Below are positions 13,811-59,079 of a stretch of 64,000 nucleotides of DNA, in pieces. The DNA is from Haloplanus aerogenes (GTDB lineage: Archaea; Halobacteriota; Halobacteria; Halobacteriales; Haloferacaceae). The stretch is taken from the NCBI RefSeq assembly GCF_003856835.1, contig NZ_CP034145.1, positions 992,001 through 1,056,000 on the forward strand, written 5' to 3'. Under the pieces are notes generated by a model that was given only the letters and a program-made list of their open reading frames with translations, made no database searches and had not been told where the DNA came from. Numbering within the stretch: the stretch's first letter is position 1; each line of letters begins with the position of its first letter. A program made the position numbers and the translations under genes.

Positions 13811-14233
13811 ATGGCAACAATACTCCTGGCCACCGACGGCAGCGAGTACGCGCGGAAGGCGGCCGAGCAGGCGATCGATATCGCGGAAGAGCGGGCAGCA
13901 ACGCTCCACGTCATCTGTGTCGTCGACAAGCGCCGCTTCGACGAACCCGCGCTCAGTTCGGCCGAACTCGAGACGATCTACGCGGAGGATCACGCGTCGA
14001 TCAACGTCGCGGAAGTCACGGCGATGGCCGACGAGCGGGCGGTAACCGTCGCGGGGGACACGCGTCACGGGATTCCCCACGAGGTCATCCTCGACTACGC
14101 CGACGAGGTAGATGCGGACTGCATCGTCATCGGCGAACACGGCAACCACGAGGAACATTTCTCCGGCGTCGGGCGGAAAGTCACGGACCTGGCCGACCGA
14201 GACGTGATGATCGTCGAAGCCAACGCGGCGTGA
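13811..14233 (+). CDS. UspA-domain protein, degenerate nucleotide site
   Basis: 140 residues from the ATG at 13811, opening MATILLATDGSEYARKAAEQ. Fold and length fit a single UspA domain. The usual ATP-binding signature (GxxG, nine residues, then GS/GT) reads GEHGNHEEHFSGVGRK, so the Ser/Thr is Arg and nucleotide binding is doubtful. It starts a run of four plus-strand genes (UspA, Na/Pi-type, UspA, tandem UspA) with gaps of 25 to 65 bases, then the P-type ATPase. Confidence 0.85.
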   Translation: MATILLATDGSEYARKAAEQAIDIAEERAATLHVICVVDKRRFDEPALSSAELETIYAEDHASINVAEVTAMADERAVTVAGDTRHGIPHEVILDYADEVDADCIVIGEHGNHEEHFSGVGRKVTDLADRDVMIVEANAA

Positions 14234-14258: not shown

Positions 14259-15353
14259 ATGCTGACGCGATTAGCGCACGTACTCGACCGACTCGCCTCG
14301 TCGCGACTCCTGCCGATCGTCGCCCTCGGCGGCATCGTTCTGTTCCTGTTTGCCGTCCGACTGCTGGGGACGGCGACGGACGCCGCAGCACCACTCATCG
14401 AACGCGTGTTCGTTCGGATCGTCGTCGGCGACGCCGCCGCGCTCGGCCTAGGCTGGCTCGGCGCGTACGTGCTCGCCAACGGATCGGTGATCGCAGCAGT
14501 CGCCGTCTCGCTGTTCACCGCCGATATCGTGTCACCCCCTCAGCTGTTCCTGCTGGTCGCGGGCTCACGCCTCGGCGCCGCAGCGATCGTCGTCTTCGTC
14601 GGCACCCTCGACTACGTCCAGAAAGCGGAGTACTCCCTGCGGAAATCCGTCAGCATGGGGCTGCTTACCTTCCTCCTGACGCTCTCGATCTACCTTCCGG
14701 TCACGGTGATCGGCTATCTCGCCCTCCCGTCTCTCCAGGGACCGTTTCGTGCCGTCAGTCGCGGCTGGTCCATCGACCCCACGCCGCTTGCGGTGTTCGA
14801 CCCGCTCACCGTCGCGATAACGACCCGGATCGGACCACTACTCTCCGTTCTCCTGGCGGTCGCGGTGCTGTTCGGGAGTCTGAATCTGTTCGACCGCCTC
14901 CTCGGGACCGTCGACACGACGACGCTCCGGCAACACGTGTTCAGTCACTTCCAGCGTACGTCCGTCTCGTTCGTGCTCGGGCTGGTCGTCACGGGGGTGA
15001 CCACGAGCGTCGCCTTCTCGCTCGGCGTCATCGTCCCGCTGTACAATCGCGGCTACGTCGAACGCGACGAACTCATCCCGTACGTCCTCGGAGCGAACCT
15101 CGGCACGCTGCTCGACACGTTGCTCGTGGCGGTCGTCCTCGACTCGGCTATCGGGGTCGCCGTCGTCCTCGAACTCTTGGTGATCGCGACGGTGGTGACG
15201 CTGGGGGCGCTCGCCGTCCGCGGGCCGTACAGTCGCTTCGTCGTCGCCGTCGACGAGCGACTGCTCACCGACCGGTCGGCGTTTCTCGCCTTCGTGGCGC
15301 TTCTCGTCCTCGCGCCGCTGGCGCTGTTGCTCGTGCCGCTGGTCCTCCGCTGA
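14259..15353 (+). CDS. Na/Pi-cotransporter-type membrane protein
   Basis: 364 residues, almost entirely membrane helices. It shows the two-fold repeat of the PF02690 family: YVLANGSVIAAVAVSLF with LFLLVAGSRLGAAAIVV in the first half, and GVTTSVAFSLGVIVPLYNR with YVLGANLGTLLDTLLVAV in the second. Such proteins move phosphate with sodium. The exact substrate is unproved, because the QSSS motif of well-studied members is replaced by ANGS here. It begins 25 bases after the first UspA gene and is followed by another UspA 65 bases on, suggesting an operon. A clear paralogue lies at 44248-45333, also followed by a UspA. Confidence 0.8.
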   Translation: MLTRLAHVLDRLASSRLLPIVALGGIVLFLFAVRLLGTATDAAAPLIERVFVRIVVGDAAALGLGWLGAYVLANGSVIAAVAVSLFTADIVSPPQLFLLVAGSRLGAAAIVVFVGTLDYVQKAEYSLRKSVSMGLLTFLLTLSIYLPVTVIGYLALPSLQGPFRAVSRGWSIDPTPLAVFDPLTVAITTRIGPLLSVLLAVAVLFGSLNLFDRLLGTVDTTTLRQHVFSHFQRTSVSFVLGLVVTGVTTSVAFSLGVIVPLYNRGYVERDELIPYVLGANLGTLLDTLLVAVVLDSAIGVAVVLELLVIATVVTLGALAVRGPYSRFVVAVDERLLTDRSAFLAFVALLVLAPLALLLVPLVLR

Positions 15354-15418
15354 TCTGCCCGGTGAAGACGTGGCCACCGGGGCGAGAACCTATGGCGGCC
15401 TCCGTCGTACGGACCGGT

Positions 15419-15841
15419 ATGGTGGACCACGTCCTCGTTCCGATGGACGAGTCGCCGCTGGCCGAGCGTGCCCTCGACTTCGCGCTCGAGGTGCATCCGG
15501 ACGCCACCCTCACCGTCCTGCGCGTCGTCGACTACGTCGAGGAGAGCTACAAGGCGCAGATGCTGGTCGGTCCGGACGAGATCCGCGAGCGAGCGCTGGA
15601 ACGGGCCGACGCCCTGTTCGAGGAGGTCCGCGAACGCACCGCGGACCACGGCGGCGAGGTCCGAACCGTCACGGAGTTCGGGAAGCCATCACGGATCATT
15701 CCGAGATACGCCGCGGAACACGACGTCGACCATATCGTGCTCGGCAGTCACGGCCGCTCGCTCGTCTCCCGGGTGCTGGTCGGCGACGTGGCCCAGACGA
15801 TCGTCGACCGGGCGGCGGTCCCGGTCACGCTCGTGCGGTGA
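15419..15841 (+). CDS. UspA-domain protein linked to the Na/Pi-type gene
   Basis: 140 residues from the ATG at 15419 (MVDHVLVPMDESPLAERALD). A single UspA domain containing VVDYVEESYKAQMLVGPDEI, a phrase shared with the UspA at 43703-44131, which also follows a Na/Pi-type transporter. The nucleotide signature is GSHGRSLVSRVLVGDV, with Asp instead of Ser/Thr at the last position. The frame is open further upstream, but this ATG matches the family start. Confidence 0.85.
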   Translation: MVDHVLVPMDESPLAERALDFALEVHPDATLTVLRVVDYVEESYKAQMLVGPDEIRERALERADALFEEVRERTADHGGEVRTVTEFGKPSRIIPRYAAEHDVDHIVLGSHGRSLVSRVLVGDVAQTIVDRAAVPVTLVR

Positions 15842-15906: not shown

Positions 15907-16761
15907 ATGTACGAACGGATTCTGGTGCCCACCGACGGAAGCGAGGTGGCCGAGGCCGCAGTCGATGCGGCGATCACGCTCGCGACCCGGTTCGACGCCG
16001 ACCTCCACATCGTGCACGTGCTGGAAGCCGGGGAGTTGCCGCCGGGAGTCGAGGACGAGGGGGCCGACGAATCCGCCGTTCGCGGTCGCGAAGCCGTCTC
16101 GTCGGCTGCCGACCGGGCGGCCGCGGCGGGTGTCGACGCGACGCCCACCGTCGTCGACACCGGCGGATCGGTACCCGAGGCGATCTGTCGATACGCCGAC
16201 GAGCAGGGGTGCGACTGTATCGTGGCCGGAACGTACGGCCGGACCGGCCTCGACCGGTTCATCCTCGGGAGCGTCGCGGAACGGCTCTTGCGCGAATCGC
16301 CGATTCCGGTCCTGACGGTCCACGAAGAGACCGTCGTCGATCCGGCGCTCGACAGGATTCTGGTGCCGACCGACGGGAGCGCGTGCGCGAGAGCGGCCGT
16401 CGATCAGGCGATCGAACTGGCACTGGCGACCGACGCCACGCTCCACGTCGTCCACGTCGTCGACTCCGGTATCGTCGACACGGGTCCGATCCCCGCGGCG
16501 CTCGAAGAGGCGGGGGAGCGAGCGATCCAACAGGTCGTTGAGCGGGCCGACGCGGCCGGCGTCTCGGCGACCGAACGGTCGCTGCTGAACGGCACTCCCC
16601 ACCAGGAAATCGTGGACTACGCCGACGAGAACGGCATCGAGTGCATCGTGATGGGCACCCACGGCCGAACGGGCGTGGATCGCTATCTCCTCGGCAGCGT
16701 CGCCGAGCGCGTCGTTCGCCTGTCGGACAGTCCGGTCCTCGCGGTCAAATCTGCGGACTGA
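15907..16761 (+). CDS. Tandem two-domain UspA protein
   Basis: 284 residues with two UspA domains, about 1-140 (MYERILVPTDGSEVAEAAVD) and about 148-284 (LDRILVPTDGSACARAAVDQ). Both have complete nucleotide signatures, GTYGRTGLDRFILGS and GTHGRTGVDRYLLGS, so ATP binding is likely in both. It would act in the cytoplasm in stress adaptation; what it binds or protects is unknown. It lies 65 bases after the single-domain UspA and ahead of the P-type ATPase. Confidence 0.9.
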   Translation: MYERILVPTDGSEVAEAAVDAAITLATRFDADLHIVHVLEAGELPPGVEDEGADESAVRGREAVSSAADRAAAAGVDATPTVVDTGGSVPEAICRYADEQGCDCIVAGTYGRTGLDRFILGSVAERLLRESPIPVLTVHEETVVDPALDRILVPTDGSACARAAVDQAIELALATDATLHVVHVVDSGIVDTGPIPAALEEAGERAIQQVVERADAAGVSATERSLLNGTPHQEIVDYADENGIECIVMGTHGRTGVDRYLLGSVAERVVRLSDSPVLAVKSAD

Positions 16762-17026
16762 TGCGGATGGTTGTGACTGTGTCCCGACTGTCGCCGACCA
16801 CGGGGGGCGGCGACAGCCGGGAATGACTCACAACGGTCCGTATGAGCCATCGAACAGCGGGGGAGCGCCGGCACCGGTCGGATCGACGGCGGGGGGCCCA
16901 CCCGTCTCACTGAGCGGGAATTTCGAGGCCGCCTTTTGCGTCGGCGGCGGTCGGATGTAGTACAACACTTATGACACTGTGGCGACTCGTCAGGATACGG
17001 ATATCCTCCCATCCATCTCTCGACCA

Positions 17027-19771
17027 ATGAGTTCCGCGGCGTCGTCCGAGTCGACAGCAGAGCGCGGGAATGACACCGAGGCGTCGTGGCACAGTCTGAC
17101 GCCCGACGAGGCGTTCGACCGGGTCGACAGCGACGAGGGAGGGCTCACGGCCGAGGAGGCCCGGACCCGGCGCGAGGAGTACGGCCCGAACGAGATTCGT
17201 GAAGGCGAGGAAATCTCCCCGCTGAAGATTTTCCTCTCGCAGTTTCAGGACTTCCTCATCTACCTGCTCGTCCTCGCCGCCCTCCTCTCGCTCGGCGTCG
17301 GGCTGTTCCCGGGGTTCGAGCCCCACTACACCGACGCCGCGTTGATCCTCCTGATCCTGCTCGCGAACGGTATCTTCGGCTTCGTCCAGGACTATCAGGC
17401 CGAGCGGTCCATCGAGGCGCTGCGGAAGATGTCCTCGCCCGAGGCGACGGTGGTACGGGACGGCGAGAAGGTCACCGTCGCCTCGACCGAACTCGTCCCC
17501 GGCGATGTCGTCGTTCTCGAACAGGGCGACGCCGTGCCCGCCGACGCCCGACTCGTCGAGACGAGCAGTCTGGAGACGAACGAGTCGGCGCTCACCGGCG
17601 AGAGCGCCAACGTCTCGAAGACGGTCGACGCCGTCGAACGGGACACGCCGCTCGCGGAGCGGACGGGCATGGTCTACATGAACACCTCGGTCGCGCGGGG
17701 CCGGGGGACGGCCGTCGTCGTCCGCACCGGCATGGACACCGAAGTCGGGAGTATCGCCACCCAGATTCAGCAGGCCGGGGACGATCAGACGCCGTTTCAG
17801 GAGGAAGTCGACCACCTCGGAAAACAGATCGGCTACGGCGTCATCGGCCTCATCGCCCTCATCGCCGTCGTCCAGTTCGCCCTCACGGCGGCGTCGCCGC
17901 TGACCATCCTCCTCGTCGGCGTCACGCTCGCCGTCGCCGCCGTGCCCGAAGGGTTGCCGGCGGTCGTCACGTTCACCCTCGCGCTGGGGTCGCGCCGCCT
18001 CGTCGAGCGCAACGCGCTCGTCAGGCGGCTTCCGGTCGTCGAGAGCCTGGGCTCGGTCGACGTCATCGTGACGGACAAGACGGGCACGCTCACGGAGAAC
18101 CGGATGACCGTCACTCGGCTCTACACGGCGGGCGAGACGTACACCGTGACGGGCGCCGGCATGGAGACCGGGGGCGAGTTCCGACTGGACGACGAGGCGG
18201 TCGACCCGGCCGCCGTCGCCCCGCTCCTTCGGTGTGGCGCCATCTGTAACAACGCGGAACGGGCCGCCGACTCCGAGACCGAGTATCTCGGCGACCCGAC
18301 CGAAGCGGCGCTGCTCGTCGCGGCGGAGAAGGGCGGCATCGACCGCGACCACGACCGCCTCCGCGAGATTCCGTTCTCCTCGGAGCGAAAACGGATGACC
18401 GTCGTCGTCGACGGCGACACGCCCACCGCCTACATGAAAGGCGCGCCCGAGGAAGTGCTCGACCACTGTGACCGCATCCTCGAGGACGGCGACCCGACCG
18501 AACTCACCGACGAGAAGCGTACGGAGATTCTCGATACCAACGACGCCTTCGCGAGCGACGCCCTGCGCATCCTCGGATTCGCGTCCAAGGACGTGCCGAA
18601 CCCCGACGCGAGCGAGGAGGAGATCGAGCGCGGGCTAACCTTCCTCGGCCTTCAGGGGATGATCGACCCGCCGCGCGACGAGGTTCCGGGCGCCGTCGCG
18701 GACTGCCGCGACGCGGGCATCAGGGTCGTCATGGTCACGGGGGACAACGTCGAGACGGCCAAAGCCATCGGCGAGCAGGTGGGGTTCGATCCCGAAGGCG
18801 CGACGACGGGGCGGGAAGTCGAGCGTCTCTCGACGGATGAACTCCGGGAGACCGTCGAGGACGTGGAGGTGTTCGCCCGCGTCAACCCCGAGCACAAGGT
18901 GCGAATCCTCGAAGCGCTGCAGGCGAACGACCACAACGTGGCGATGACGGGCGACGGAGTCAACGACGCGCCGGCGCTCCGGAACGCCGACGTGGGCATC
19001 GCGATGGGACGACGCGGCACCGACGTCGCCAAACAGGCCAGCGACATGATCCTGCAGGACGACAACTTCGCGACCATCCGCGACGCCATCGCGGAGGGGC
19101 GCGGCATCTTCGACAACATCCGGAAGTTCGTCAACTACCTCCTCTCCGCGAACGCCGGCGAAGTGCTCGTGGTCTTCCTGGGCGTCCTCGTCGGGACGCT
19201 TCTGTTTCCCGGACTGTTCGCCGAGCAGGCCGAAGCGCTGGTCCTCACGCCCATCATGCTCCTCTGGATCAACCTCGTGACCGACGGCCTCCCAGCGCTC
19301 GCCCTCGGCGCCGACCCACAGGCCGAGAACATCCTCGACCGCCCCCCGCGGGAGTCGGACGAACCGGTCATCGACCGGCACATGATGGCCTCTATCGCCG
19401 GCATCGGGGCAATCATGACCGTCACCGGCCTCGCGCTCTTTTTCTACGGCCTACGAACGGCCGCGGACCTGATGCGGGCCCAGACGGTCCTCTTTACCTT
19501 CCTCGTGGTGGTCGAAGTGATCCGCATCCAGGTGATCCGGTCGCGGTACGACCTCTCGCTCGTCTCGAATCCCTGGTTGCTCGGCGCCATCGGTGTCACC
19601 CTGCTCCTACAGCTTCTCGTCCTCTACACGCCACTCAACGTCTTCTTCGACGTGCGCCCCATCACGCTCCAGGGGTGGACGTGGATCGGCACCGCCTTCG
19701 TCGGCTTCCTCGGCCTCAATCTCGCATTGAGTGCGCTCCTGGATCGGATCTTCACCTCGCGAATCGGGTGA
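17027..19771 (+). CDS. P-type cation-transporting ATPase (P2, Ca2+-type)
   Basis: 914 residues from the ATG at 17027 ([20 protein letters not shown]); the frame is open upstream. All hallmarks are present: a cation-ATPase N-terminal domain, TGES at 190-193, PEGLP in M4 (307-311), the phosphorylated Asp350 in DKTGTL, and later [11 protein letters not shown]. The C-terminal membrane region has [13 protein letters not shown], as in SERCA-type pumps. It would export Ca2+ or a related divalent cation using ATP. It follows the UspA run on the same strand after a 265-base gap. A second ATPase of the same class lies at 37951, with a different M6 motif (NVVTDIFPAFALG). Confidence 0.92.
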
Positions 19772-35669: not shown

Positions 35670-37646
35670 TCACAGGCCCCAGAAGAACGCGATGCCAGCC
35701 GTCGTGACGACGGTCAGGACGAGCTGGAGCGGCGCACCGACGCGCGCGAAGTCGGAGAATTTGTACCCACCGGGGCCGTAGACCATGAGATTCGTCTGGT
35801 AGCCGACCGGGCTGAGCAGGGGCGTGCTGGCGGCGAACGTCACCGCGAGGGCGAACGCGAAGGCGTTGACGCCGAGTTGACCAGCGACCTCCACGGCGAT
35901 GGGGAGCATCAATACGATACTGGCGTTGTTGCTCATCATCTCCGTGATGATCGCGGTCCCCAGGTAGAATACCGCGAGCATCACGAGCGGCGGCAGCACG
36001 GTGCCCTCGGTGGCGATGCCCGACGCGATCAGATCCGCCGTCCCGGAGGCCTCGAACGCGATTCCCAGGGGAATGACCCCCGCGAGCAGGAAGATGACGT
36101 CCCAGTCGACGGCCTCGTAGGCGTCCGCGGGGCGGAGGATACCCGAAAAGAGCATCGCGACGACGCCCGCGAGCGCACTGACCATTATCGGGAGGTACTC
36201 GAGGGCGGCCAGTCCGACGACGGCGGCGACGATGCCCAGTGCGATAGGCATCCGTGTCCGGTCGAAATCCTCCCAGCGTCTGTCACTGGAGACGACGATA
36301 TTGCTGTCATCCCGGAGTCGGTCGAGGACGTCCTCGCTCGTCTGGACGAGTAACACGTCACCGCCCTGTAGGCGCACGTCCCGGAGGCGCTGACGAATCA
36401 CCTCGTTCCCCCGGCGGACGGCAAGCACGGTCGCGTCGTAGTTTCGCTCGAATCCCGCGACGCCGTTTCGTCTGTTCAACCACGTCCCGGGGAGCAACAC
36501 GATCTCCGTGAGCGAAACTTCGTCCCTGGCTTCCTCCGCTTTTTCCGTACCCTCGTCGTCGTTCGTGGCCGGATTGGGTGTCGCCGACGGCCGGTTCCAC
36601 GCGTGGTGCTCGGGCACGAATCCTTCGGGGAGCGGTTCGTCCCCGTCCGCTACGGCGTCGAGGAGTTCCGGGAGGAAATCGAGGTGTTCGTCCCCGATGA
36701 CCTGTTCGAGCGTCTCCTGGCTCGCTCTGACCGAGAGGACGTCGCCGGCGCGGATCCGCTCGCTGGAAAGGCCGCGAACGATGCTGCGGCCGTTGCGCAC
36801 GATCTCGAACACGTCCAGGTCAAGGTCGCCGCGCCGCACCTCTCGCACCTGCGACCCGACGAGGTCGGAATTCTCGTGGACGACGACGTCGGTCAAGTAG
36901 TCAGCCATGCCGAATTGGTCCGTGGGAGTCCCCTCGGCCGCGATTCGGGCTGGCGTGAGATACCGACCAACCGTGAGGAGGTACAGTATGCCGACGGCCA
37001 GCACGACGGCGCCGAGCTGCGTGAATTCGAACAGTGAGAACGGTTCTGCGGTCGGGCCGCCGACCTGCGCCCAGATCTGGCTCGCGAGCAGGTTCGTCGA
37101 CGTGCCGATCACGGTGAGCATCCCGCCCAGCATCGCGGCGAACGAGAGGGGGATCAGCAGCTTCGACGGCGAGGTGCCGGTCTTTCGGGCGAGGGTCGTG
37201 ACGGCCGGGATGAGTACTGCGACGATGGGCGTGTTGTTGATGAAACCCGCCGACGGGCCCGCCAGTCCGACCGTCGCGAGGAGTTGGCGGAATTCGCTGT
37301 CGCCCGCGAACGACTCCATTTTCAGCGTGAGTATCTGGATGACACCGGTCTGTCGCACCCCCTCGCTGAGGATGAACATCGCCAGCACAGTGATGGTCGC
37401 AGGGTTCGAGAAGCCCGAGACGCCTTCCTCGGGGGAGACGCCCGTCCACGGATCGAGGAGGATCAACACGACCATCAGGGCGATCGCGGTGGTGTCGATC
37501 GAAACCGGCTGGAAGATGAACAGGACGAGCGCGACGACGACGAGCGCAAGAACCACCAGTACGTCGACAGAGACCGGCAGTTGCACGGGAAACTGCTGGA
37601 GTAGTGCTAGCGGTGCCAGGATGGGGTCGTAGGGTACGGTCGTCAC
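35670..37646 (-). CDS. SLC13/DASS-type permease with internal TrkA-C (RCK-C) domains, copy 1
   Basis: 658 residues. Two groups of membrane helices (about 20-240 and 465-658) flank two soluble TrkA-C-like domains (about 255-330 and 385-450). Transporter motifs are NNTPIVAVLIPAV and FAAMLGGMLTVIGTSTNL in the first half, and NNASIVLMLPIAV and GYQTNLMVYGPGGY in the second. The family imports anions such as sulfate, phosphate or dicarboxylates with Na+; the RCK-C domains would sense a ligand. The substrate is unknown. The protein is close throughout to the one at 47164-49170. It differs most in the acidic linker between the soluble domains. Confidence 0.88.
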   Translation of the reverse strand: MTTVPYDPILAPLALLQQFPVQLPVSVDVLVVLALVVVALVLFIFQPVSIDTTAIALMVVLILLDPWTGVSPEEGVSGFSNPATITVLAMFILSEGVRQTGVIQILTLKMESFAGDSEFRQLLATVGLAGPSAGFINNTPIVAVLIPAVTTLARKTGTSPSKLLIPLSFAAMLGGMLTVIGTSTNLLASQIWAQVGGPTAEPFSLFEFTQLGAVVLAVGILYLLTVGRYLTPARIAAEGTPTDQFGMADYLTDVVVHENSDLVGSQVREVRRGDLDLDVFEIVRNGRSIVRGLSSERIRAGDVLSVRASQETLEQVIGDEHLDFLPELLDAVADGDEPLPEGFVPEHHAWNRPSATPNPATNDDEGTEKAEEARDEVSLTEIVLLPGTWLNRRNGVAGFERNYDATVLAVRRGNEVIRQRLRDVRLQGGDVLLVQTSEDVLDRLRDDSNIVVSSDRRWEDFDRTRMPIALGIVAAVVGLAALEYLPIMVSALAGVVAMLFSGILRPADAYEAVDWDVIFLLAGVIPLGIAFEASGTADLIASGIATEGTVLPPLVMLAVFYLGTAIITEMMSNNASIVLMLPIAVEVAGQLGVNAFAFALAVTFAASTPLLSPVGYQTNLMVYGPGGYKFSDFARVGAPLQLVLTVVTTAGIAFFWGL

Positions 37647-37950: not shown

Positions 37951-40689
37951 ATGGACGAACACCCGATTCAAACGCCGTGGGCGAAATCGTCTGATGAGAT
38001 CGTAGCGCATTACGATGTTTCTGTAGACGAGGGGCTGAGTGAGGACGAAGCCGAAAGACGGCGCGAGCGGGTCGGCCCGAATGCGTTGCGCGAAGCCGAA
38101 CAGCGGAGCTGGTTGGGGGTTCTGGTTGACCAGTTCAAGAGCTTCATCGTCCTGTTGCTGGCGGTGGCGGGTGTGGCAGCCTTTGCATTGAACGAGAACA
38201 TCGAGGGCGTCGCTATCTTCGTCGTCCTCCTCATCAACGGACTCATCGGATTCGTCACCGAGATGCGGGCCATCAAGTCGATGGAGAGCCTCCAGGAGAT
38301 GGTCGAGATCGAAGCCCGCGTTCGGCGTGCAGGGGAGAGCAGGGATGTTCCCGCGGAAGATCTGGTCCCGGGAGACATCGTGGTCCTCAACGCCGGGAAC
38401 GTCGTTCCGGCCGACCTTCGAGTGATCGAGCCCTCCAAGCTCCAGGCCGACGAATCAGCACTCACCGGCGAGTCCGTTCCCGTCGGAAAGACGAGCGACG
38501 TCCTCGAGGAAGAGGTGCCCCTCGCCGAGCGGGAGAACATGCTCTACAAGGGCACGAGCGTGACGCGGGGGACCGCCGAAGCGATCGTGGTGGCCACGGG
38601 GATGGACACGGAACTGGGCAAGATTTCGGCGTCCCTTCAGGGGGAGGCTGAGGAGAAGACGCCGCTCCAACAGAAGCTCGATGGTCTCGGGCAGAAGCTC
38701 GTTCCGTTCCTGCTCGTCGTGGCAGCGATCGTCCTCGTCTCGGGCTGGCTCAGAGGCCAGGATCTGTACCTGATGGTCGAGACGGCCATCGCACTGGCTA
38801 TCGCGACCATTCCGGAGGGACTTCCAGTCGTCGCCACGCTCGTACTCGCACGCGGGATGTGGCGGATGGCGGATCGCAACGCCCTGATCAACAACCTCGC
38901 CTCCGTCGAGACGCTGGGATCGACGAACGTCATCTGTACCGACAAGACGGGCACGCTGACGGAGAACAAGATGACCGTCAGCCAGTACGAGCTGGCCAAC
39001 GGCTCGGTCGCTGTCACCGGGACCGGACTCGACACCGAGGGGACGTTCCAGCACGGCGACGAGGAACGGGATCAGCCACAGGATCCCGCCCTCCAGGAAG
39101 CGCTAGAGGTGGGCGTTCTCTGTAACAACGCGTCCGTGACTGAGGAGGATGGCGAGACGGTCGTGACGGGTGATCCGACGGAAGCTGCCCTCCTGATAGC
39201 GGGATTGAAGGGCGGCGTAGACCGGGACGGTCTCCTCGAATCGATGCCCGAAGCTCGCGAGGTGTCCTTCGACCCCTCCGTCAAGATGATGGCGACCTAC
39301 CACGAGCTAAACGGGAGCTACAGGGTCGCCGTGAAGGGTGCCCCGGAGGCGGTCGTCGAGTCGTCCACCCGACTGGTGACGGGCGACGACACCGAGGCGC
39401 TCTCGGAAGATGACAAAGAAGAGTGGATCCGGAAGAGCGAGAATATGGCCGAAGACGGATTGCGGGTTCTCGCTCTCGCCAGGAAGGACGTCAAGAGTAC
39501 GGACGCCCCGCCGTACGAAGAGCTGTCGCTGCTCGGGCTCGTTGCGATGATCGATCCACCACGCAAGGAGGTCAAATCGACCATTAAGAACTGTCTGGAC
39601 GCGGGGTTGCGAATCGTTATGGTGACCGGTGACCACCCCGGGACGGCCAGAAACATCGCCCGGAGTGTCGGGTTGATGGACCCGGAGGACGACGAGGTCA
39701 TCCAGGGGAGCGAACTCGACGACCCCGAGAACCTGTCCCAGGACGAGATGGAGCGGTTCACGAACGCGTCGGTCTTCGCGCGGGTCTCCCCGGAGAACAA
39801 GCTCGACCTGATCGGAATTCACCAGGCAGTCGGGTCGATCGTGGCCATGACCGGCGACGGGGTCAACGACGCGCCGGCGCTGAAGCGGGCCGACATCGGC
39901 GTCGCCATGGGTCAGCGGGGAACGCAAGTGGCTCAGGAGGCGTCGGACATGATCCTTCGGGACGACAACTTCACGAGTATCTACCACGCCATCAGGGAGG
40001 GGCGGATCATCTTCCGGAACATCCGGAAGTTCGTGTTGTATCTCATGTCCTGCAACCTCAGCGAACTGCTGGCCATTCTGATCGCCGCGCTGCTGGGCTT
40101 TCCGCTCCCGTTGCTCCCCCTACAGATCCTCTTTCTCAACGTCGTGACCGACATCTTCCCGGCGTTCGCATTAGGGGCGTGCGGGGGCAGCAAGGAAATT
40201 ATGAACACGCCACCGAGGGGTCCCGACGAGCCGATCCTGACCCGCACGCACTGGACCGAACTGGGGCTGTACGGAACGATGATCGCAGTCGCGACTGTCG
40301 GCGCGTTCGTGATCGGGGGAAGCATGTACGCCGGCGGCATGGGGGCCGACGAGGTCGTCACCATGTCGTTCCTCACGCTGGCGTTCGCCCAGCTCTGGCA
40401 CGTGTTCAACATGCGAGAGCTCACGTCGGGCATCGTGCGCAACGAAGTCACTGCAAACGCGTACGTTTGGGGTGCCCTCGGCCTGTCCGCTCTGCTGGTG
40501 ATTGGCACCCTCTACCTGCCGGGGGTTTCGCTGGCACTGAGCACCGCCCCCATCGGCTTCGAAAGCTGGCTGGTGGTACTCGGAATGAGCCTGCTCCCTC
40601 TCGGCGCCGGACAGGTTGTCCTGGAGTTTCGCCGCCGATTTGGCACGCCGAACCTGGGGACAAGGCTCGAAGATCTGTTGTTCGACTGA
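37951..40689 (+). CDS. P-type cation-transporting ATPase, second copy
   Basis: 912 residues with a cation-ATPase N-terminus (HYDVSVDEGLSEDEAERRRE), TGES at 172-175, IPEGLP in M4 (287-292), phosphorylated Asp331 in DKTGTL, and [11 protein letters not shown]. The membrane C-terminus has NVVTDIFPAFALGACGG, which differs from the [13 protein letters not shown] of the first ATPase and may alter ion choice. Ca2+, Mg2+ or monovalent cations are all possible. It is the only gene on its strand for several kb and is convergent with the AI-2E gene (14-base gap). Confidence 0.92.
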   Translation: MDEHPIQTPWAKSSDEIVAHYDVSVDEGLSEDEAERRRERVGPNALREAEQRSWLGVLVDQFKSFIVLLLAVAGVAAFALNENIEGVAIFVVLLINGLIGFVTEMRAIKSMESLQEMVEIEARVRRAGESRDVPAEDLVPGDIVVLNAGNVVPADLRVIEPSKLQADESALTGESVPVGKTSDVLEEEVPLAERENMLYKGTSVTRGTAEAIVVATGMDTELGKISASLQGEAEEKTPLQQKLDGLGQKLVPFLLVVAAIVLVSGWLRGQDLYLMVETAIALAIATIPEGLPVVATLVLARGMWRMADRNALINNLASVETLGSTNVICTDKTGTLTENKMTVSQYELANGSVAVTGTGLDTEGTFQHGDEERDQPQDPALQEALEVGVLCNNASVTEEDGETVVTGDPTEAALLIAGLKGGVDRDGLLESMPEAREVSFDPSVKMMATYHELNGSYRVAVKGAPEAVVESSTRLVTGDDTEALSEDDKEEWIRKSENMAEDGLRVLALARKDVKSTDAPPYEELSLLGLVAMIDPPRKEVKSTIKNCLDAGLRIVMVTGDHPGTARNIARSVGLMDPEDDEVIQGSELDDPENLSQDEMERFTNASVFARVSPENKLDLIGIHQAVGSIVAMTGDGVNDAPALKRADIGVAMGQRGTQVAQEASDMILRDDNFTSIYHAIREGRIIFRNIRKFVLYLMSCNLSELLAILIAALLGFPLPLLPLQILFLNVVTDIFPAFALGACGGSKEIMNTPPRGPDEPILTRTHWTELGLYGTMIAVATVGAFVIGGSMYAGGMGADEVVTMSFLTLAFAQLWHVFNMRELTSGIVRNEVTANAYVWGALGLSALLVIGTLYLPGVSLALSTAPIGFESWLVVLGMSLLPLGAGQVVLEFRRRFGTPNLGTRLEDLLFD

Positions 40690-41747: not shown

Positions 41748-41875
41748 AAAGATTCGACATCATCACAGATTTAGATCACTTTTACTGCTAGCGACTGCCA
41801 GGATCAATCGGACTCGAATCGAAGCCAGTCGGCCACAGCCCCACTTATCCGTCTGTGTGCCCTACGAGATACCGT

Positions 41876-42166
41876 ATGCCCGAAGAAGTCCTCTTTCAGT
41901 CAGAGGGGTCCCAGAGTCGAGCGGAGATTGCGTCGTATCTTCGTCGAGTCGCAGACAAACTCGATGCTGGCGGCGACATCACCCTGACCACCGGCGAGCA
42001 GTCGGTGACGATGACACCCCCTGCCCAACCGACGTTCGAGGTGAAAGCCGAGCGCGAAGGACCGACCGATAGTCCTGGTGAGCTGAGTATTGAGTTCGAG
42101 ATAGAGTGGGCTGAAGATGGCGAAGCCGGAAACGCCGAAAGCGGTGGCGGGTTAGAAATCGAATGA
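41876..42166 (+). CDS. amphi-Trp domain protein
   Basis: 96 residues from the ATG at 41876 (MPEEVLFQSEGSQSRAEIAS). The family signature is clear: an amphipathic helix AEIASYLRRVADKLDAGGDI, then strands TLTTGEQSVTM and LSIEFEIEWAE. Function is unknown; the family is common in haloarchaea. A second member lies at 60048-60335. Confidence 0.8.
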   Translation: MPEEVLFQSEGSQSRAEIASYLRRVADKLDAGGDITLTTGEQSVTMTPPAQPTFEVKAEREGPTDSPGELSIEFEIEWAEDGEAGNAESGGGLEIE

Positions 42167-42371
42167 AAGCAGTCCTCTATGGTGAATCGATAATTTGTGG
42201 AGGTACCCGGCGAGAATAGAGATACCCTGTCTTGTATGTAGCATTGTCCTGTTTCCGATTCCGAGGTAGCATCTCCGCTTGGTGGTATTTCTGTGCGATC
42301 TCAATCCGCCAGAGATGTTCTGGGTGGGTCTCCCAGTCGGGTTCAACAACCACGACTGACGAAGCACCCGA

Positions 42372-42641
42372 TCACGACTCGATCTCTCTGATAATTTTGT
42401 CGGCTTGCTCACGGGCTTTTTCTTCACCCACGTTTTTCTTGATCAACACAGACTGGACTATCCAATCATCTGTGTCTTTCCGCTTCCCCATCCGCACCTC
42501 GCTCCCCTCCGAGACGGAATCAGAGACACGGTCCGCCCAGTCTGGTGTCCGAATTTGATCGAACTGGTCAGGCTCCCGATACCGGACGTGGATGTACTCG
42601 TCCTCTGTTGTGATCGACTTGAGATCTGGAATCCGGCGCAT
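42372..42641 (-). CDS. Small hypothetical protein
   Basis: 89 residues from the ATG at 42641 (MRRIPDLKSITTEDEYIHVR). It is acidic, with WADRVSDSVSEGSEVRMGKR and a helical C-terminus KARE-QADKIIREIES. I do not recognise a family. Codon use and charge look like a real haloarchaeal gene, and it is not a shadow of another frame. It lies beside an IS6 element. Confidence 0.5.
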   Translation of the reverse strand: MRRIPDLKSITTEDEYIHVRYREPDQFDQIRTPDWADRVSDSVSEGSEVRMGKRKDTDDWIVQSVLIKKNVGEEKAREQADKIIREIES

Positions 42642-42766
42642 CGTTGTCAATACGATGAGGAAATGCAAAAATCAACAGGTCGGTTCGATACTGATGAGTT
42701 ATCGAAAATACTCGCCCACCAGCCAGATCGAGAGCGCTCCCCTCTATCGCTAGGGCTCGTCCTCGG

Positions 42767-43457
42767 GGTCGCGTTAACTTTGGCGTGAGTTGTGCCGGAC
42801 GGCGAGGGCTTTGAGCCACGATTCTGCTGTCTGCGGTTCGACATGGCTGAAACTAGTTGCGAACGATGAGGTTCGTCGTTCTATCTCCCAAAAGACACGT
42901 TCGATGGCATTCCGATTCCCGTGTGAAATCATCTGGAATCGGTACCCGTCTTCGTCGAGGACGTTCACCAAGTAATCGGCGTCATCGACGAGAAATTCGA
43001 CGCCATCTAGCCGATATCGTCGATGAAGTTCGGTCAGAAACCATCGCGTCGTCTGTTTCGTTGTCGCTGGAAACAGCCTGAAATGGAGGATTTCGTTCGT
43101 TTGGGGATCGACGGCACCGTACAGCCAGTAGTCGTCGCCGTTGATGCGGATCACTTTCTCGTCGACCGCAAGCTGATCCGCACTCACCGTCGAAACCGGC
43201 TGTAGCTTGGCCTTGTGAACCCAGTTGTGAACCGCGATGTGACTGCGTTGGACTCCCAACTCATCGAGAAACTGACTGGCATCCCTCGTTGACATATCTG
43301 CGAGATGACACCGGATGCCCACTTGAATCGCCCACTCGGGAGTCCGATCTCGCTCCACAAACGACAAGTCGATCCACTCGATACACTTGCTGAGGCGTTC
43401 GGATTCTGCCATAGACACTCAGAACTCGAACGCCTCATCCTCTAACTTAACGCGACC
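42767..43457 (-). mobile_element. IS6-type insertion sequence, about 0.69 kb
   Basis: Terminal inverted repeats GGTCGCGTTAACTT (42767-42780) and its near-complement AACTTAACGCGACC (43444-43457) match at 13 of 14 bases and frame one transposase gene. The 8 bases outside each end differ (GTCCTCGG and ACATCTTC), so there is no target duplication. The copy may have taken part in a recombination or deletion. Confidence 0.8.
42774..43412 (-). CDS. IS6-family DDE transposase
   Basis: 212 residues from the ATG at 43412 (MAESERLSKCIEWIDLSFVE). A short N-terminal DNA-binding helix region (DASQFLDELGVQRSHIAVHN) precedes the DDE core: LAVDEKVIRINGDDYWLYGA (first Asp), EFLVDDADYLV (second Asp) and NAIERVFWEIERRTS (Glu). 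The length is normal for haloarchaeal IS6 transposases. The stop lies within the terminal repeat. Replicative transposition and cointegrate formation are typical for the family. Confidence 0.9.
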   Translation of the reverse strand: MAESERLSKCIEWIDLSFVERDRTPEWAIQVGIRCHLADMSTRDASQFLDELGVQRSHIAVHNWVHKAKLQPVSTVSADQLAVDEKVIRINGDDYWLYGAVDPQTNEILHFRLFPATTKQTTRWFLTELHRRYRLDGVEFLVDDADYLVNVLDEDGYRFQMISHGNRNAIERVFWEIERRTSSFATSFSHVEPQTAESWLKALAVRHNSRQS

Positions 43458-43490: not shown

Positions 43491-43660
43491 ATGCCTCGTG
43501 GGTTCGACAGGGAGCGTACCAACGTCCACAAACTCCGGTACCACTTTATCTGGTGTCCGAAGTACCGCAAATCGGTGCTTGAGGGTGAGGTGCGCGACCG
43601 TCTCGAAGAACTCATCGAGGAGAAGGCCAACGAACTCGACCTCGAAATTTTGGAGTTGGC
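43491..43660 (+). pseudogene. tnpA: IS200/IS605 TnpA, N-terminal fragment
   Basis: About 57 codons, MPRGFDRERTNVHKLRYHFI and on, with WCPKYRKSVLEGEV and LEELIEEKANELDLEI, the standard N-terminus of Y1 transposases. The next part should hold the HUH metal motif and later the catalytic Tyr, but the sequence changes to an unrelated hairpin (GATTCGCC/GGCGAATC, 43661-43684). The protein is therefore cut before its active site and cannot act. Confidence 0.8.
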
Positions 43661-43684
43661 GATTCGCCGTTTCAGGGGCGAATC
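43661..43684. repeat. 8-bp inverted repeat after the TnpA fragment
   Basis: GATTCGCC (43661-43668), 8-base loop, GGCGAATC (43677-43684). It could be an IS200-type right end joined to the truncated tnpA, or a terminator for the UspA gene that ends at 43703 on the minus strand. Confidence 0.5.
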
Positions 43685-43702
43685 TGGGGGCACAGTTTGC
43701 GG

Positions 43703-44131
43703 TCACCTGACGACAGTCACAGGCACTGATGCACGCTTCATCACCGTTTCAGCGACCGAACCCATGAGCATTCGAGCGACACCCGAGCGTCCGTGGCTTC
43801 CGATGACGATCACGTCGATGCCGTGTGTGTCCGCGTACTCGAGGATCTCGTCTGCGGCCTTGCCAACCTCGCTTGCCGTCTTAACTATCTGGTCGTGCTC
43901 GTCTGCTTTCGCCTCGGCTTCGGTGAGCAGGTCTTCCGACCGGTCCTGGGCTCGTTTTCGGAGCGTTTCGTCCCCAACCAGTGCTTTCGCGGTGTAGCTC
44001 TCTTCGATGTAATCGATCACGTGGAGGACGGTGATCGACGCATCCGAGTACACGTCGAGCGCGTGCGCCAGCGCCTTCTCCGAGAGCGGGGTCCCATCGT
44101 ACGCAACGAGCACCTCGTCGACGGAGGCCAT
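43703..44131 (-). CDS. UspA-domain protein, partner of the second Na/Pi-type gene
   Basis: 142 residues, MASVDEVLVAYDGTPLSEKA. A single domain with an intact nucleotide signature, GSHGRSGVARMLMGS. VIDYIEESYTAKALVGDETL matches the same stretch in the UspA at 15419-15841. Both genes follow a Na/Pi-type transporter in the same orientation, here with a 116-base gap. Confidence 0.88.
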   Translation of the reverse strand: MASVDEVLVAYDGTPLSEKALAHALDVYSDASITVLHVIDYIEESYTAKALVGDETLRKRAQDRSEDLLTEAEAKADEHDQIVKTASEVGKAADEILEYADTHGIDVIVIGSHGRSGVARMLMGSVAETVMKRASVPVTVVR

Positions 44132-44247
44132 ACGTAGAGATGCGTGTCAAAGCCACATATAGGCGCGGGGGCAACTGAGCCTGCGGAAAGGGGGCGACCC
44201 GTATGGGCAGACCTCTCCCGATAGAACAGACTGTCTCGGCCGCAGAA

Positions 44248-45333
44248 TTAGATCGGGATCAGGACCAGAAGTATCGGGAGGACAATCAACGAGATGAGAA
44301 ACCCGGCCAGGTATCGACGATCAGTAACGAGTCGGGTTTGGATTGTCTCGACAGCTTGGAAGTACGTCGAGAATCGAACCAGTGTTCCGACCGTTATGAT
44401 CGTTCCGACGGCCACGAGTGAGAGCACGATAGCCACGCCTTGTGGGGATTCCAGAAGCACGGCGATGACGATCGTGTCGAAGAAGGTGCCGACATTCGCC
44501 CCCAGAACGTAGGGAACGATCTCCTGCCGTTTGATGTAGTTACGATTGTAGAGGGGGACGACCACCCCCAGCGAGAACGCAACGCTGGTCGTCACGCCGG
44601 TAATGAGGACACCGAGTCCGAACGAAGTCCACTTGTGCTGAAATCGACGAAAGAACCGCTTGCGGAGCCATTCGGTGTCGATCCGTTTGAGCACCCGGTC
44701 GAAGAGTGTGAGGCTGCCGAACAGCACGAGAACGGCTACCACGAGTGCCAGACCCACGCCGACGGTATCGACGACGGCTCCCGTCGCTGGATTAAAAGCC
44801 GCCAGCGGGTGAAACGAGAGTTCGATTCGGTTACTGACGGCTCCGAATCCCGTCTGGAGTCTCGGCAACAGGAGATATCCGAGGACGGTCGCCGGCACAT
44901 AAATCGAGTGGGACAGGAGGAACGTTAGCACCCCTAACTCGGTCGCCTCGCTGAACGAATAGCGCCGCTTCTGGAAGTAGTCCAGAGCCCCGATCAGGAG
45001 GACGATAGCGGCGCCCCCGAGGCGTGAGCCAGCGAGCATCAGGAACAGCTGTGAGGCCGTGAGGATCCCGGTCTTGAACAGCGAGACGGACAGGGCCGCT
45101 ATCACTGACCCGTTGGTGAGTACGTACGTGGCGAGCCAGCTTGCACCCAGGGCTTGCCCATTCCCGGCGACGTATCGCCTGAAGAACCGTTCGAGCGGAG
45201 CGGCCGCGGCCGCTGTGGACGCACCCAGCAACTGGACCGCGAACAGGAACAGTAGCAAAGAGACGAAAGCGCCAACGACTAACGGGCCGGATTCACGCCC
45301 TCGTGTCCGTATCTTGTCGATGTTCGAATCCAC
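44248..45333 (-). CDS. Na/Pi-cotransporter-type membrane protein, second copy
   Basis: 361 residues, clearly homologous along its whole length to the protein at 14259-15353. Matching segments are YVLTNGSVIAALSVSLF, LFLMLAGSRLGGAAIVL, GVTTSVAFSLGVVVPLYNRN and YVLGANVGTFFDTIVIAV. It has two inverted membrane repeats, as usual for PF02690. Substrate is likely phosphate or another anion with Na+. It is followed downstream by a UspA gene, as in the first copy. Confidence 0.8.
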   Translation of the reverse strand: MDSNIDKIRTRGRESGPLVVGAFVSLLLFLFAVQLLGASTAAAAAPLERFFRRYVAGNGQALGASWLATYVLTNGSVIAALSVSLFKTGILTASQLFLMLAGSRLGGAAIVLLIGALDYFQKRRYSFSEATELGVLTFLLSHSIYVPATVLGYLLLPRLQTGFGAVSNRIELSFHPLAAFNPATGAVVDTVGVGLALVVAVLVLFGSLTLFDRVLKRIDTEWLRKRFFRRFQHKWTSFGLGVLITGVTTSVAFSLGVVVPLYNRNYIKRQEIVPYVLGANVGTFFDTIVIAVLLESPQGVAIVLSLVAVGTIITVGTLVRFSTYFQAVETIQTRLVTDRRYLAGFLISLIVLPILLVLIPI

Positions 45334-45529
45334 AGTATTCTGTCTCTACAGCCTCATGGCAGGCGCACAAAGGTTACGCCGTGAGAGGGAGATTTCCCGT
45401 CATGAATGTGTGTTCGATCCCGTTGTCCAACGCCAGATTCGGCTCAGAACAGTCACTATCCTTTGATATCGTTGGGAGGTACCACCAGACGGGAGACCAT
45501 TTATCGGGTTCGGGTGAATTCTAATACTC

Positions 45530-46831
45530 ATGGCTCGGCTCGTTTTTGTGACTGTCCCTGCAGGGAAGCGGGACGCTGTTCTCGACGTTTTGGACGACGA
45601 AGGAATCAGTTATACGCTCACTGATGAGACGAGCAACCGCGAATACACCTGTGCCGTTCATTTTCCGCTTCCGACGAATGCTGTCGAACCCATTCTGGAT
45701 CGTCTCCGGGAAACGGGCATAAACGACGATGCGATTACGGTGACGGTCGAGACGCAAACCGTCGTTTCACGAAATTACGACCAAATCAAGGATCGATTTA
45801 CGGAAGACGAAGACAGTCCAGAGCAGATCGCACGCGAAGAACTCCAAAGCGCTGCTGACGATCTCGTTCCTGCGTCCTTGCCGATATATGCTGCCATGAC
45901 TATCGTGAGTGCGATTATTGCGACGGCAGGACTGCTTCTGGATTCTGCTGCGGTCGTCGTCGGGTCTATGGTGATCGCACCACTTATCGGCCCCGCAATG
46001 GCCACAAGTGTCGGCACTGTGTTTCGGGATCGCGACCTCTTTAGAGATGGTGTCAAGCTGCAGATCATCGGGGCCACACTCACGATCGTGAGTGCAGCTC
46101 TGTTTGCGATACTCATCAGAACTGGGAATCTCGTCCCACCTGGATTGGATATTCTGTCTATCTCGCAAATCCGGGAACGATTTCGGCCGGATGTCCTGTC
46201 ACTCGTGGTTGCCCTCGGATCCGGTGCCGCTGGAGTGATTAGCCTTGCTTCGGGGGTTTCATCAGCACTAGTTGGCGTCATGATCGCAGTGGCACTCGTC
46301 CCTCCCGCGGCGACGGTCGGTATCGCCATCGCATGGGGGAATACGGCACTCGCCGTGGGCTCCGGCGTGTTGCTCCTCGTTAACCTTCTGTCGATCAATC
46401 TCGCTGCACTCCTTGTGCTCTGGTATATGGGATACCGGCCTGAGAAATGGTTCCGTATCGAGCAGACCAGAAAGACATTCGTCAAACGCGTCGGCGTTCT
46501 CCTGATTAGCATTCTGATCCTTTCTGCATTCCTTGGAACTGTTACGTTCTCTTCGTATCAGACTGCCACTTCCGAGCAATCGATTCAAAATGATATCCGA
46601 TCAATTCTCGATGAACCGGTTTATTCAGAGTTCGTTCTACTCGAGGTCCAGTTCGAATATTCGGAGAATCTCCTCGCCCAGCGTCCCTCCAAGGTAACCA
46701 TCTTGATCGGTGCTCCTCGAGGAGAAATCCCGCCAGAACTGGGAGATCGGTTGAACACCCGTATTGATGAGATTGCAGGTCGCAACGTAGCTGTACAGGT
46801 TCGATACCTAACCGTTCAAGAACCGGGGTAG
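45530..46831 (+). CDS. DUF389 (TIGR00341-type) membrane protein
   Basis: 433 residues. An N-terminal cytoplasmic ferredoxin-like domain (about 1-80, MARLVFVTVPAGKRDAVLDV) precedes a membrane domain with LLLDSAAVVVGSMVIAPLIG and MIAVALVPPAATVGIAIAWG, typical of DUF389. A soluble C-terminal domain of about 95 residues follows. Transport function is suspected but unproved. It is divergent from the Na/Pi-type gene. Confidence 0.88.
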   Translation: MARLVFVTVPAGKRDAVLDVLDDEGISYTLTDETSNREYTCAVHFPLPTNAVEPILDRLRETGINDDAITVTVETQTVVSRNYDQIKDRFTEDEDSPEQIAREELQSAADDLVPASLPIYAAMTIVSAIIATAGLLLDSAAVVVGSMVIAPLIGPAMATSVGTVFRDRDLFRDGVKLQIIGATLTIVSAALFAILIRTGNLVPPGLDILSISQIRERFRPDVLSLVVALGSGAAGVISLASGVSSALVGVMIAVALVPPAATVGIAIAWGNTALAVGSGVLLLVNLLSINLAALLVLWYMGYRPEKWFRIEQTRKTFVKRVGVLLISILILSAFLGTVTFSSYQTATSEQSIQNDIRSILDEPVYSEFVLLEVQFEYSENLLAQRPSKVTILIGAPRGEIPPELGDRLNTRIDEIAGRNVAVQVRYLTVQEPG

Positions 46832-46889
46832 TGCCGGGGGTAGGGTAACCGGTTATCTCAACAACGTCCAATAGCCCAGTTAGATAGCA

Positions 46890-47024
46890 GTCATATTCCA
46901 ACGCGTTCTACTACCGACTGACGGCAGTGAAGCCTCGTCGATCGCAGCTGAAGCAGCTGTGTCACTCGCCGATCGGTTTGACGCGGAACTACACGTGATT
47001 CAGCTGGTTCTTGTCCCACGCTAA
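46890..47024 (+). pseudogene. UspA N-terminal fragment
   Basis: Read by hand: FQRVLLPTDGSEASSIAAEA, continuing AVSLADRFDAELHVIQLV and then a stop at 47022-47024. This is the first third of a UspA domain, with no usable start codon (ATA and GTC precede it). The rest of the gene, including the nucleotide signature, is absent. It lies just beyond the 3' flank of the second SLC13 gene. Confidence 0.75.
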
Positions 47025-47070
47025 ACTCTCATGAACGGGCTCGCCGGCCAAAACGAACGGAAAGCAGATT

Positions 47071-47163
47071 GATCCGACCCCTCATTGGTGGGTGAGAGAC
47101 TCGTAGGGGGGCGGCTGCAGCGCAGGACACCGGTGGCCAGTACGGATCGGAGTCCCGGTGTCG
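47071..47163 (-). repeat. Duplicated 3' flank of SLC13 gene, copy 2
   Basis: Matches 35577-35669. Similarity starts near GATCC and continues to the stop codon of each SLC13 gene. Confidence 0.75.
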
Positions 47164-58209: not shown

Positions 58210-59079
58210 CTACTCCCTGTGTCCAACCGTGATGACTGGAACTGGTGCAGAGCGGACGGTCTTCTCGGCGACACTCCCGAGAAGGATTCGATCGCTCCCG
58301 CGTCTCCCTGTCGTCCCCATCACGACGGCGTGGATATCGTTCGAGTCGATGGTCCCGAGTATTAGCTCGATAGGGGATCCGTGTTCGACGTGCCGGACCG
58401 TGTTCGATACGCCGCGTGTCTCCGCCTCGGACACGACGTCGTCCACGGCGTCGGTCGCAACCTGTTCACGTTCATGTCCCGAAATCGTGGAGCGAACGTC
58501 CAGACCCAGCGACGTATCGTCGACGACAGACAGCACGTGAACAGTCGCATCGAGAGCCGCTGCAAGTGAGAGGCCATACTCGGCAGCATGGGCCGCACCG
58601 GCACTCCCGTCGGTCGGTATGAGAATGTTCTCGTAGGGGAACACCAGTTGTTCGTCGGGCTGCATCCGCGCTGTGAGGACAGGGACGGAAGACAGACGGA
58701 CGACCTTCTCCGTGACGCTTCCGAGGAGGTATCGTGACACCCCCTCCCGACCGTGGGTCGGCATCACGATCACGTCGTACTCGTATCGCTCGGCGTACTC
58801 GACGATCGTCGGCGCTGGATGCCCCTGGACGACGTCGGAATCGTAGTCGGCACCGAGTGCATCCAGTGTCTTTTCTGCTTCCTCGACGATGTCCTCGCCC
58901 TCCTGGATAAGGGCGTCAACGACCTCGGTTTCGACGACCGTGACACTATCGCGTGTCGTATCCGCGACGAACAGGACGTGGATCGTGGCGTCGGCCCAGT
59001 GTGCGATCTCGGCAGTGTGATGCAATGCCTCCGCAGCCCCATCGCTTCCATCGAACGGGAGCAGAATGTCCTCGTACAT
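58210..59079 (-). CDS. Tandem two-domain UspA protein
   Basis: 289 residues, MYEDILLPFDGSDGAAEALH. Domain 1 (1-145) has an altered nucleotide signature (PTHGREGVSRYLLGS, Pro replacing the first Gly). Domain 2 (about 150-289, NILIPTDGSAGAAHAAEYGL) has a full one (GTTGRRGSDRILLGS). Paired with the next upstream gene of the same layout (43-base gap), which suggests local duplication and a shared operon. Confidence 0.9.
   Translation of the reverse strand: MYEDILLPFDGSDGAAEALHHTAEIAHWADATIHVLFVADTTRDSVTVVETEVVDALIQEGEDIVEEAEKTLDALGADYDSDVVQGHPAPTIVEYAERYEYDVIVMPTHGREGVSRYLLGSVTEKVVRLSSVPVLTARMQPDEQLVFPYENILIPTDGSAGAAHAAEYGLSLAAALDATVHVLSVVDDTSLGLDVRSTISGHEREQVATDAVDDVVSEAETRGVSNTVRHVEHGSPIELILGTIDSNDIHAVVMGTTGRRGSDRILLGSVAEKTVRSAPVPVITVGHRE

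Follow-up and report, generated by a model that had tools for sequence, protein, structure and literature searches.

In haloarchaea, a membrane protein predicted to have the Na/Pi-cotransporter fold (PF02690) and a UspA carrying an EESYxAxxL[VI]G segment are inherited and transferred together, and in Usps this segment, searched as an exact pattern in 392 genomes, occurs only next to that transporter. The Usps with the segment form a subfamily of one origin. The window analysed, a stretch of 64,000 nucleotides (C1:992001-1056000) of the 3.5-Mb genome of Haloplanus aerogenes, contains two such pairs, at 14259-15841 (plus strand) and at 45333-43703 (minus strand), each with the gene for the membrane protein followed by that for the UspA. 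The same order and relative orientation had been claimed in the original prediction, and both pairs were confirmed at these places.

Joint inheritance of the transporter and the EESY-type Usp

The transporters of copy 1 (364 amino acids; 14259-15353, plus strand) and copy 2 (361 amino acids; 44248-45333, minus strand) were identified by Pfam and by a protein search of the genome. They share 54% identity over 320 residues, and both score above the PF02690 cut-off of 29.1 bits (38.6 and 54.6 bits). No third copy was found in the 3.5-Mb genome by a protein search (E <= 1) or by a Pfam family search. The one-domain UspAs of copy 1 (15419-15841, plus strand) and copy 2 (43703-44131, minus strand; PF00582 match and Usp tree) are 50% identical over 139 residues and score above the PF00582 cut-off of 24 bits (104.3 and 113.2 bits). 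The listed open frame of the copy 1 Usp begins at 15362; judged from orthologues, the ATG at 15419 is a more likely start than the GTG at 15362. The segment reads EESYKAQMLVG in copy 1 (15539-15570, plus strand) and EESYTAKALVG in copy 2 (43974-44005, minus strand), the coordinates being those of the pattern search shifted by the window offset of 992000. These two Usps, each directly after a transporter, account for the genome's only two pattern matches, and the sharing of the segment by both UspAs, as predicted, was thereby borne out. Copy 1 is preceded on the same strand by a Usp gene lacking the EESY segment (13811-14233, PF00582), 25 nt before the transporter, and the next gene on that strand (15907-16761) codes for a tandem two-domain Usp. 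The upstream Usp has a relative upstream of the transporter in locus L063, and the two group together in the tree of Usps.

Scanning the 392 genomes with a degenerate DNA pattern that encodes EE(S, T or R)YxAxxL(V or I)G yielded 18 matches in 17 genomes; a reversed-pattern control yielded none. Thirteen matches (12 genomes) were Usps directly downstream of a PF02690-fold transporter; 12 of them read EESY, and a broken Usp in genome G356 reads EERY. The other five (EETYAADRLIG, in five genomes of one genus) sit in a long protein and were rejected as unlinked EESY Usps: the one scanned (L118) belongs to the peptidase M20 family, and the remaining four look alike. Every Usp that matched the exact pattern in the 392 genomes lay at the transporter; this linkage test is one-sided, since the paired Usp of L062 carries a variant (EEMDVAEAMIG) that escapes the pattern.

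The transporter was present in 42 of the 392 genomes of the order and in 25 of 95 genera (E <= 1e-10), its distribution thus being patchy; the window's genus has it in two of five surveyed genomes. Of 294 genomes drawn from the phylum, 13 gave matches at E <= 1e-8; four of these genomes lie outside the order, with 35% and 24-26% identity. The loci analysed were those of 42 full-length transporters: 40 were survey hits, and the other two came from named records, Halobellus rarus (L001) and Natronomonas gomsonensis (L002). A split gene (L042), a fused remnant (L043) and two fragments (L044 and L045) were excluded. A survey of gene neighbourhoods, proposed as a check on the original prediction, placed an EESY-type Usp directly downstream and on the same strand in 16 of these 42 loci, across genera and 27-124 nt past the transporter match. 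These 16 include the L062 variant and three broken genes: the Usp frame is disrupted in L046 and contains an in-frame TAG in L051 and L052, the transporter frame being open in all three. A different Usp lies within 1.2 kb of the transporter in six further loci (L037-L039, L048, L056 and L063), and the remaining 20 loci have no Usp within that distance. The 26 loci without an EESY-type Usp, 21 of them outside the paired clade (support 92/93) and five inside (L047, L048, L055, L056 and L063), indicated that the transporter does not always need the Usp.

Clustering of the proteins encoded in 43 neighbourhoods gave a Usp cluster in 26. The largest neighbour cluster overlapping neither transporter nor Usp was present in eight loci, and the next ones, in seven, seven and six, were a P-type ATPase, an ABC ATPase and a sodium/calcium exchanger. 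Clusters of 20, 17 and 13 loci were discarded as neighbours, as they merely overlap the transporter in the way that an other-frame reading does. At L043:4071-4676, the N-terminal half of the transporter runs in frame into the C-terminal part of a Usp; this fits a former neighbouring pair and resembles the leftover of an internal deletion. The related species of L051 and L052 have an identical TAG near the N-terminus of the Usp, with the rest of the frame open, and this codon may be an inherited nonsense codon, may precede a later start, or may be recoded.

A maximum-likelihood tree of the 42 transporters was compared with a tree of 86 Usp domains, the latter comprising 15 paired Usps, 17 other neighbours, 32 domains of the Haloplanus aerogenes genome (a subset of its 69 matches, drawn from the window and 20 other stretches) and 22 unlinked domains from elsewhere (20 stretches picked among high-scoring matches in other genomes); the broken L046 Usp and domains shorter than 110 residues were left out. 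On the transporter tree, presence of a downstream EESY-type Usp requires four changes, against a mean of 13.0 after shuffling, and none of 500 shuffles gave so low a value. All paired Usps fall into a single clade (support 97/90), and a branch separates them from the other domains in 96% of 200 bootstrap trees. Three sets are alike in both trees: L054/L057/L061/L064; copy 1 (L077)/L053/L060; and L051/L052/L049/L050 with copy 2 (L076)/L001/L002. The copy 1 transporter clusters with L053 and L060 (f4) and that of copy 2 with Halobellus, Natronomonas and L046, and the intact Usps group correspondingly. The two trees disagree on the position of L062, which has a long branch in that of the Usps. 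The matching sets cut across families and do not follow taxonomy: copies 1 and 2 share a genome and belong to different sets, and L054, from the same genus, is in the first of the three. Pairwise distances of transporters and Usps were correlated (Mantel r = 0.905, n = 14; none of 9999 permutations as high, best 0.64), in a test that takes no account of the species' shared ancestry and from which L046 and L052 were left out, the latter having the same Usp as L051. The alike splitting of one genome's two copies in both trees is a firmer point than this correlation. Together with the single origin of the Usps and a block of about 1.76 kb shared with Halobellus rarus (see below), these sets strongly supported the earlier suggestion that the pair moved as a unit. 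The original prediction had made sisterhood or co-evolution of the two pairs its touchstone; in the trees the copies are not sisters, and the genes of each pair are co-inherited. Transporter columns separating paired from unpaired loci (A43, Q121, L177, T220, F228 and F231, among others) were not taken as contacts, being confounded by descent.

A possible accessory role of the Usp

An AlphaFold2 model of the copy 2 Usp, the one copy modelled, showed an ordinary Usp fold (pLDDT 85.3), with the EESY segment placed, at lower local confidence, at residues 40-52, where a loop and a short helix follow the second strand; residues 114-122, in the region of the nucleotide loop, had a pLDDT below 50. 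Compared with the PDB, the model matched TeaD first by E-value, and Lactobacillus plantarum UspA and MJ0577 were about as close or closer by TM-score. The nucleotide loop reads GSHGRSLVSRVLVGD in the 15 kb copy vs GSHGRSGVARMLMGS in the 44 kb copy. In copy 1 (15743-15787, plus strand) Asp (15785-15787) occupies the Ser/Thr position after the G-x2-G-x9-G spacing, in agreement with the proposed loss of this residue in one UspA; the copy 2 loop has Ser. Asp occurs in three of the 15 paired Usps (copy 1, L053 and L060), each from a different genome, and Ser in the other 12. The unlinked Usp domains of other genomes all have Ser (22/22), and the other neighbour Usps have Ser in 12 of 17 cases, Arg in one and no match in four. 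Among the 32 domains of the own genome, 17 have Ser, six another residue (two of these, L082 and L084, seemingly matching elsewhere in the protein) and nine a mismatch in spacing. With Asp for the loop Ser, the Usps of the subclade that includes the 15 kb copy have probably lost nucleotide binding or changed its mode.

Based on these results, we propose, with about an even chance of being right, that the pair is a two-gene cassette in which the Usp is a cytosolic accessory that docks on the transporter and tunes it according to nucleotide state; the contact, the direction of control and the nucleotide dependence are what we infer. Docking would use the EESYxAxxL[VI]G segment and take place at the transporter's cytosolic face. 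Through its G-x2-G-x9-G-S loop, the Usp would make transporter activity depend on nucleotide state (ATP/AMP) and so gate it by energy or stress. The Asp-loop Usps of the 15 kb copy subclade would then be a fixed or differently tuned subunit. A stronger version, in which the EESY Usp has co-evolved with the transporter as its dedicated subunit, the segment is a transporter-specific docking element, and one genome holds both nucleotide-responsive (Ser) and nucleotide-blind (Asp) regulators, is doubtful but, if true, such a subunit would be the first described for this transporter type. Support for docking is weakened by the fact that co-inheritance can arise from co-transfer without contact.

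The main rival is co-expression only, a serious contender that we place clearly short of an even chance: within a stress island, one promoter would drive a general stress Usp and an ion or solute transporter, and the two proteins would make no contact. The window is indeed rich in Usps: it makes up 1.8% of the genome and contains 12 of the 69 PF00582 matches, against 1.26 expected (Poisson ~1e-8, a rough value, as tandem domains count apart). Co-expression would also suit the presence of other Usps near the transporter in the six loci named above and the decay of the Usp in L046, L051 and L052 while the transporter stays open. However, island effects leave unexplained the tie of a single Usp subfamily, with its private segment, to the transporter, which was seen in 13 of 13 pattern matches and in loci whose remaining neighbours differ. 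Regulation of a transporter by a Usp can be tested sharply with this pair, whose private segment goes with a single transporter and which exists in one genome in two natural versions with different nucleotide loops.

Usps fused to or beside many transporters are known. For haloarchaea, the part of Anderson et al. (2011, PMC3102087) available describes UspA domains fused to or beside APC and FNT transporters, and after an SSS transporter. Those pairs resemble the present one in that a UspA adjoins a secondary transporter and recurs across haloarchaeal genera, and differ in that APC, FNT and SSS, not PF02690, are named in that part of the text, and in the private Usp segment found here. The principle is therefore known, and the PF02690 pair with its EESY Usp is an addition to it; no report of this pair was found in the literature searched, a scope that leaves aside most subscription papers. 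In Haloferax volcanii, excerpts of PMC7746861 describe a sodium:solute symporter and a Usp co-transcribed in the ActP-UspA28 operon, ActP being an acetate transporter of the SSF family. In Halomonas elongata, the Usp gene teaD is clustered with the transporter genes teaABC, and TeaD, an ATP-binding protein, reportedly modulates transport by TeaABC (excerpts of PMC9006882 and PMC12159084); there the host is a bacterium and the transporter of the TRAP type, and the match of TeaD to our Usp model is about equalled by other Usps. In Mycobacterium tuberculosis, Rv2623 is reported to interact with Rv1747 (a title cited in PMC12159084); these are a two-domain Usp and an ABC transporter, respectively. 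According to a passage of a 2023 review, UspA fusions and operon partners are not experimentally characterised in transporter regulation (PMC10710835).

The transporter and its substrate

The membrane proteins appear, from their sequences, to belong to the Na/Pi-cotransporter fold family and to form a subfamily whose motif at the presumed substrate site is altered. The residues conserved in 40 or more of the 42 transporters spell WxxxYxxxNGSxxAA...GSRLG (first half) and TxxTTSxAFSxGxxVPxYNR....RxExxP...GAxxGTxxDT (second half), and Arg104, Arg264, Arg269, Glu271 and Asp286 are near-invariant. In NaPi-II carriers, the QSSS motifs sit at proposed ion and substrate sites (as given in part of PMC6325988). 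The present family shares with NaPi-II and YjbB a Pfam match in two stretches and the GAxxGT of the second half (PMC6325988, same part). It differs from them in having the near-invariant NGS and TTS in place of QSSS in both repeats, in the five near-invariant residues listed above, and in giving no match to a PhoU domain. The NCBIfam Na/Pi models scored below their cut-offs, NF037997 with 31.2 and 33.8 against 50 bits and TIGR00704 with 20.5 and 20.7 against 210.1 bits; given these scores and the absence of QSSS, we named the protein by its family fold only, as a PF02690-fold transporter.

Comparison of the 42-sequence profile with Escherichia coli YjbB, annotated as a phosphate exporter, gave a weak alignment of the second half with the first YjbB repeat, QSSN standing against TTSV; the first half scored below zero and was compared by eye. 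YjbB itself has QSSN, and YSSL in its second repeat, with no strict QSSS, so the motif change alone does not exclude phosphate. Profile comparison of the two halves of the transporter gave no significant internal repeat (probability ~0.3%), no solved structure matched by sequence (phmmer, E <= 10), and an AlphaFold2 model from four sequences (pLDDT 39.6) was too poor for a fold search.

That the protein is nevertheless a true sodium-phosphate (or arsenate) carrier, with the Usp linking it to phosphate or energy status, is improbable. It would agree with the PF02690 score and with the departure of even YjbB from strict QSSS, as well as with the genes for an ArsR-family regulator and a low-molecular-weight phosphatase-family protein that adjoin the transporter at L062:4807-7534 and L048:5926-8161. 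These two clusters, however, occur in just two of the 43 neighbourhoods, no PhoU or Pst-specific family was met among the 40 neighbour proteins scanned, and the NGS and TTS motifs and the NCBIfam scores speak against phosphate. Thus the original description as "Na/Pi-type" stands for the fold family and lacks support for the substrate, and the pair flags a haloarchaeal transporter family called Na/Pi by fold whose phosphate substrate is unsupported. The order on one strand in L062 is regulator, phosphatase family, transporter and Usp.

Origin and surroundings of the two pairs

The two pairs are, as judged from the trees, two old lineages. Their like order and orientation and the 54% and 50% identities had led to the view that the pair was duplicated, but a recent copying within the Haloplanus aerogenes genome is now contradicted and next to impossible, since holding the two window transporters as sisters lowered the log-likelihood by 242 (AU test, p-AU 1.2e-5) and the copies cluster with different foreign loci in both trees, so that gene conversion or failure of the model would be needed to rescue it.

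Copy 2 shares with Halobellus rarus a block of 91% DNA identity (43661-45419, minus strand, ~1.76 kb) that comprises nothing but the pair and short flanking stretches. Three blocks, 41874-42766, 43661-47002 and 47163-48699, are shared with Natronomonas gomsonensis, in the same order and with 90-93% identity. The copy 2 transporter protein is 93-94% identical to those of both species, the only named records matched. Copy 1 shows 74-75% DNA identity over the pair to L060 and L053. In L047 and L048, the shared DNA stops just past the transporter and the EESY Usp is absent. The shared blocks and this break indicated that the pair moves as one piece and at times comes apart. Adjoining copy 2 are an IS240-type DDE transposase gene between 14-nt inverted repeats (42767-43457, minus strand; DDE_Tnp_IS240 domain at 42774-43418, just above the cut-off) and, beside the Usp, an IS200-like transposase remnant (43491-43664, plus strand; PF01797 match to residues 12-58 of the open frame). 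We assign to neither a role in moving the pair.

Elsewhere, the window contains two cation P-type ATPases (16979-19771 and 37951-40689), two CitMHS/TrkA_C carriers (35670-37646 and 47164-49170), an MscS channel and a CNNM protein. A Usp remnant with an in-frame TAA (46896-47069) lies between the DUF389 and CitMHS genes, and a two-domain Usp stands at its place in Natronomonas gomsonensis. Another two-domain Usp of the window (58210-59079) has ~93% DNA identity to the Usp just upstream of the pair in Halobellus rarus, which suggests that parts of the island move separately.
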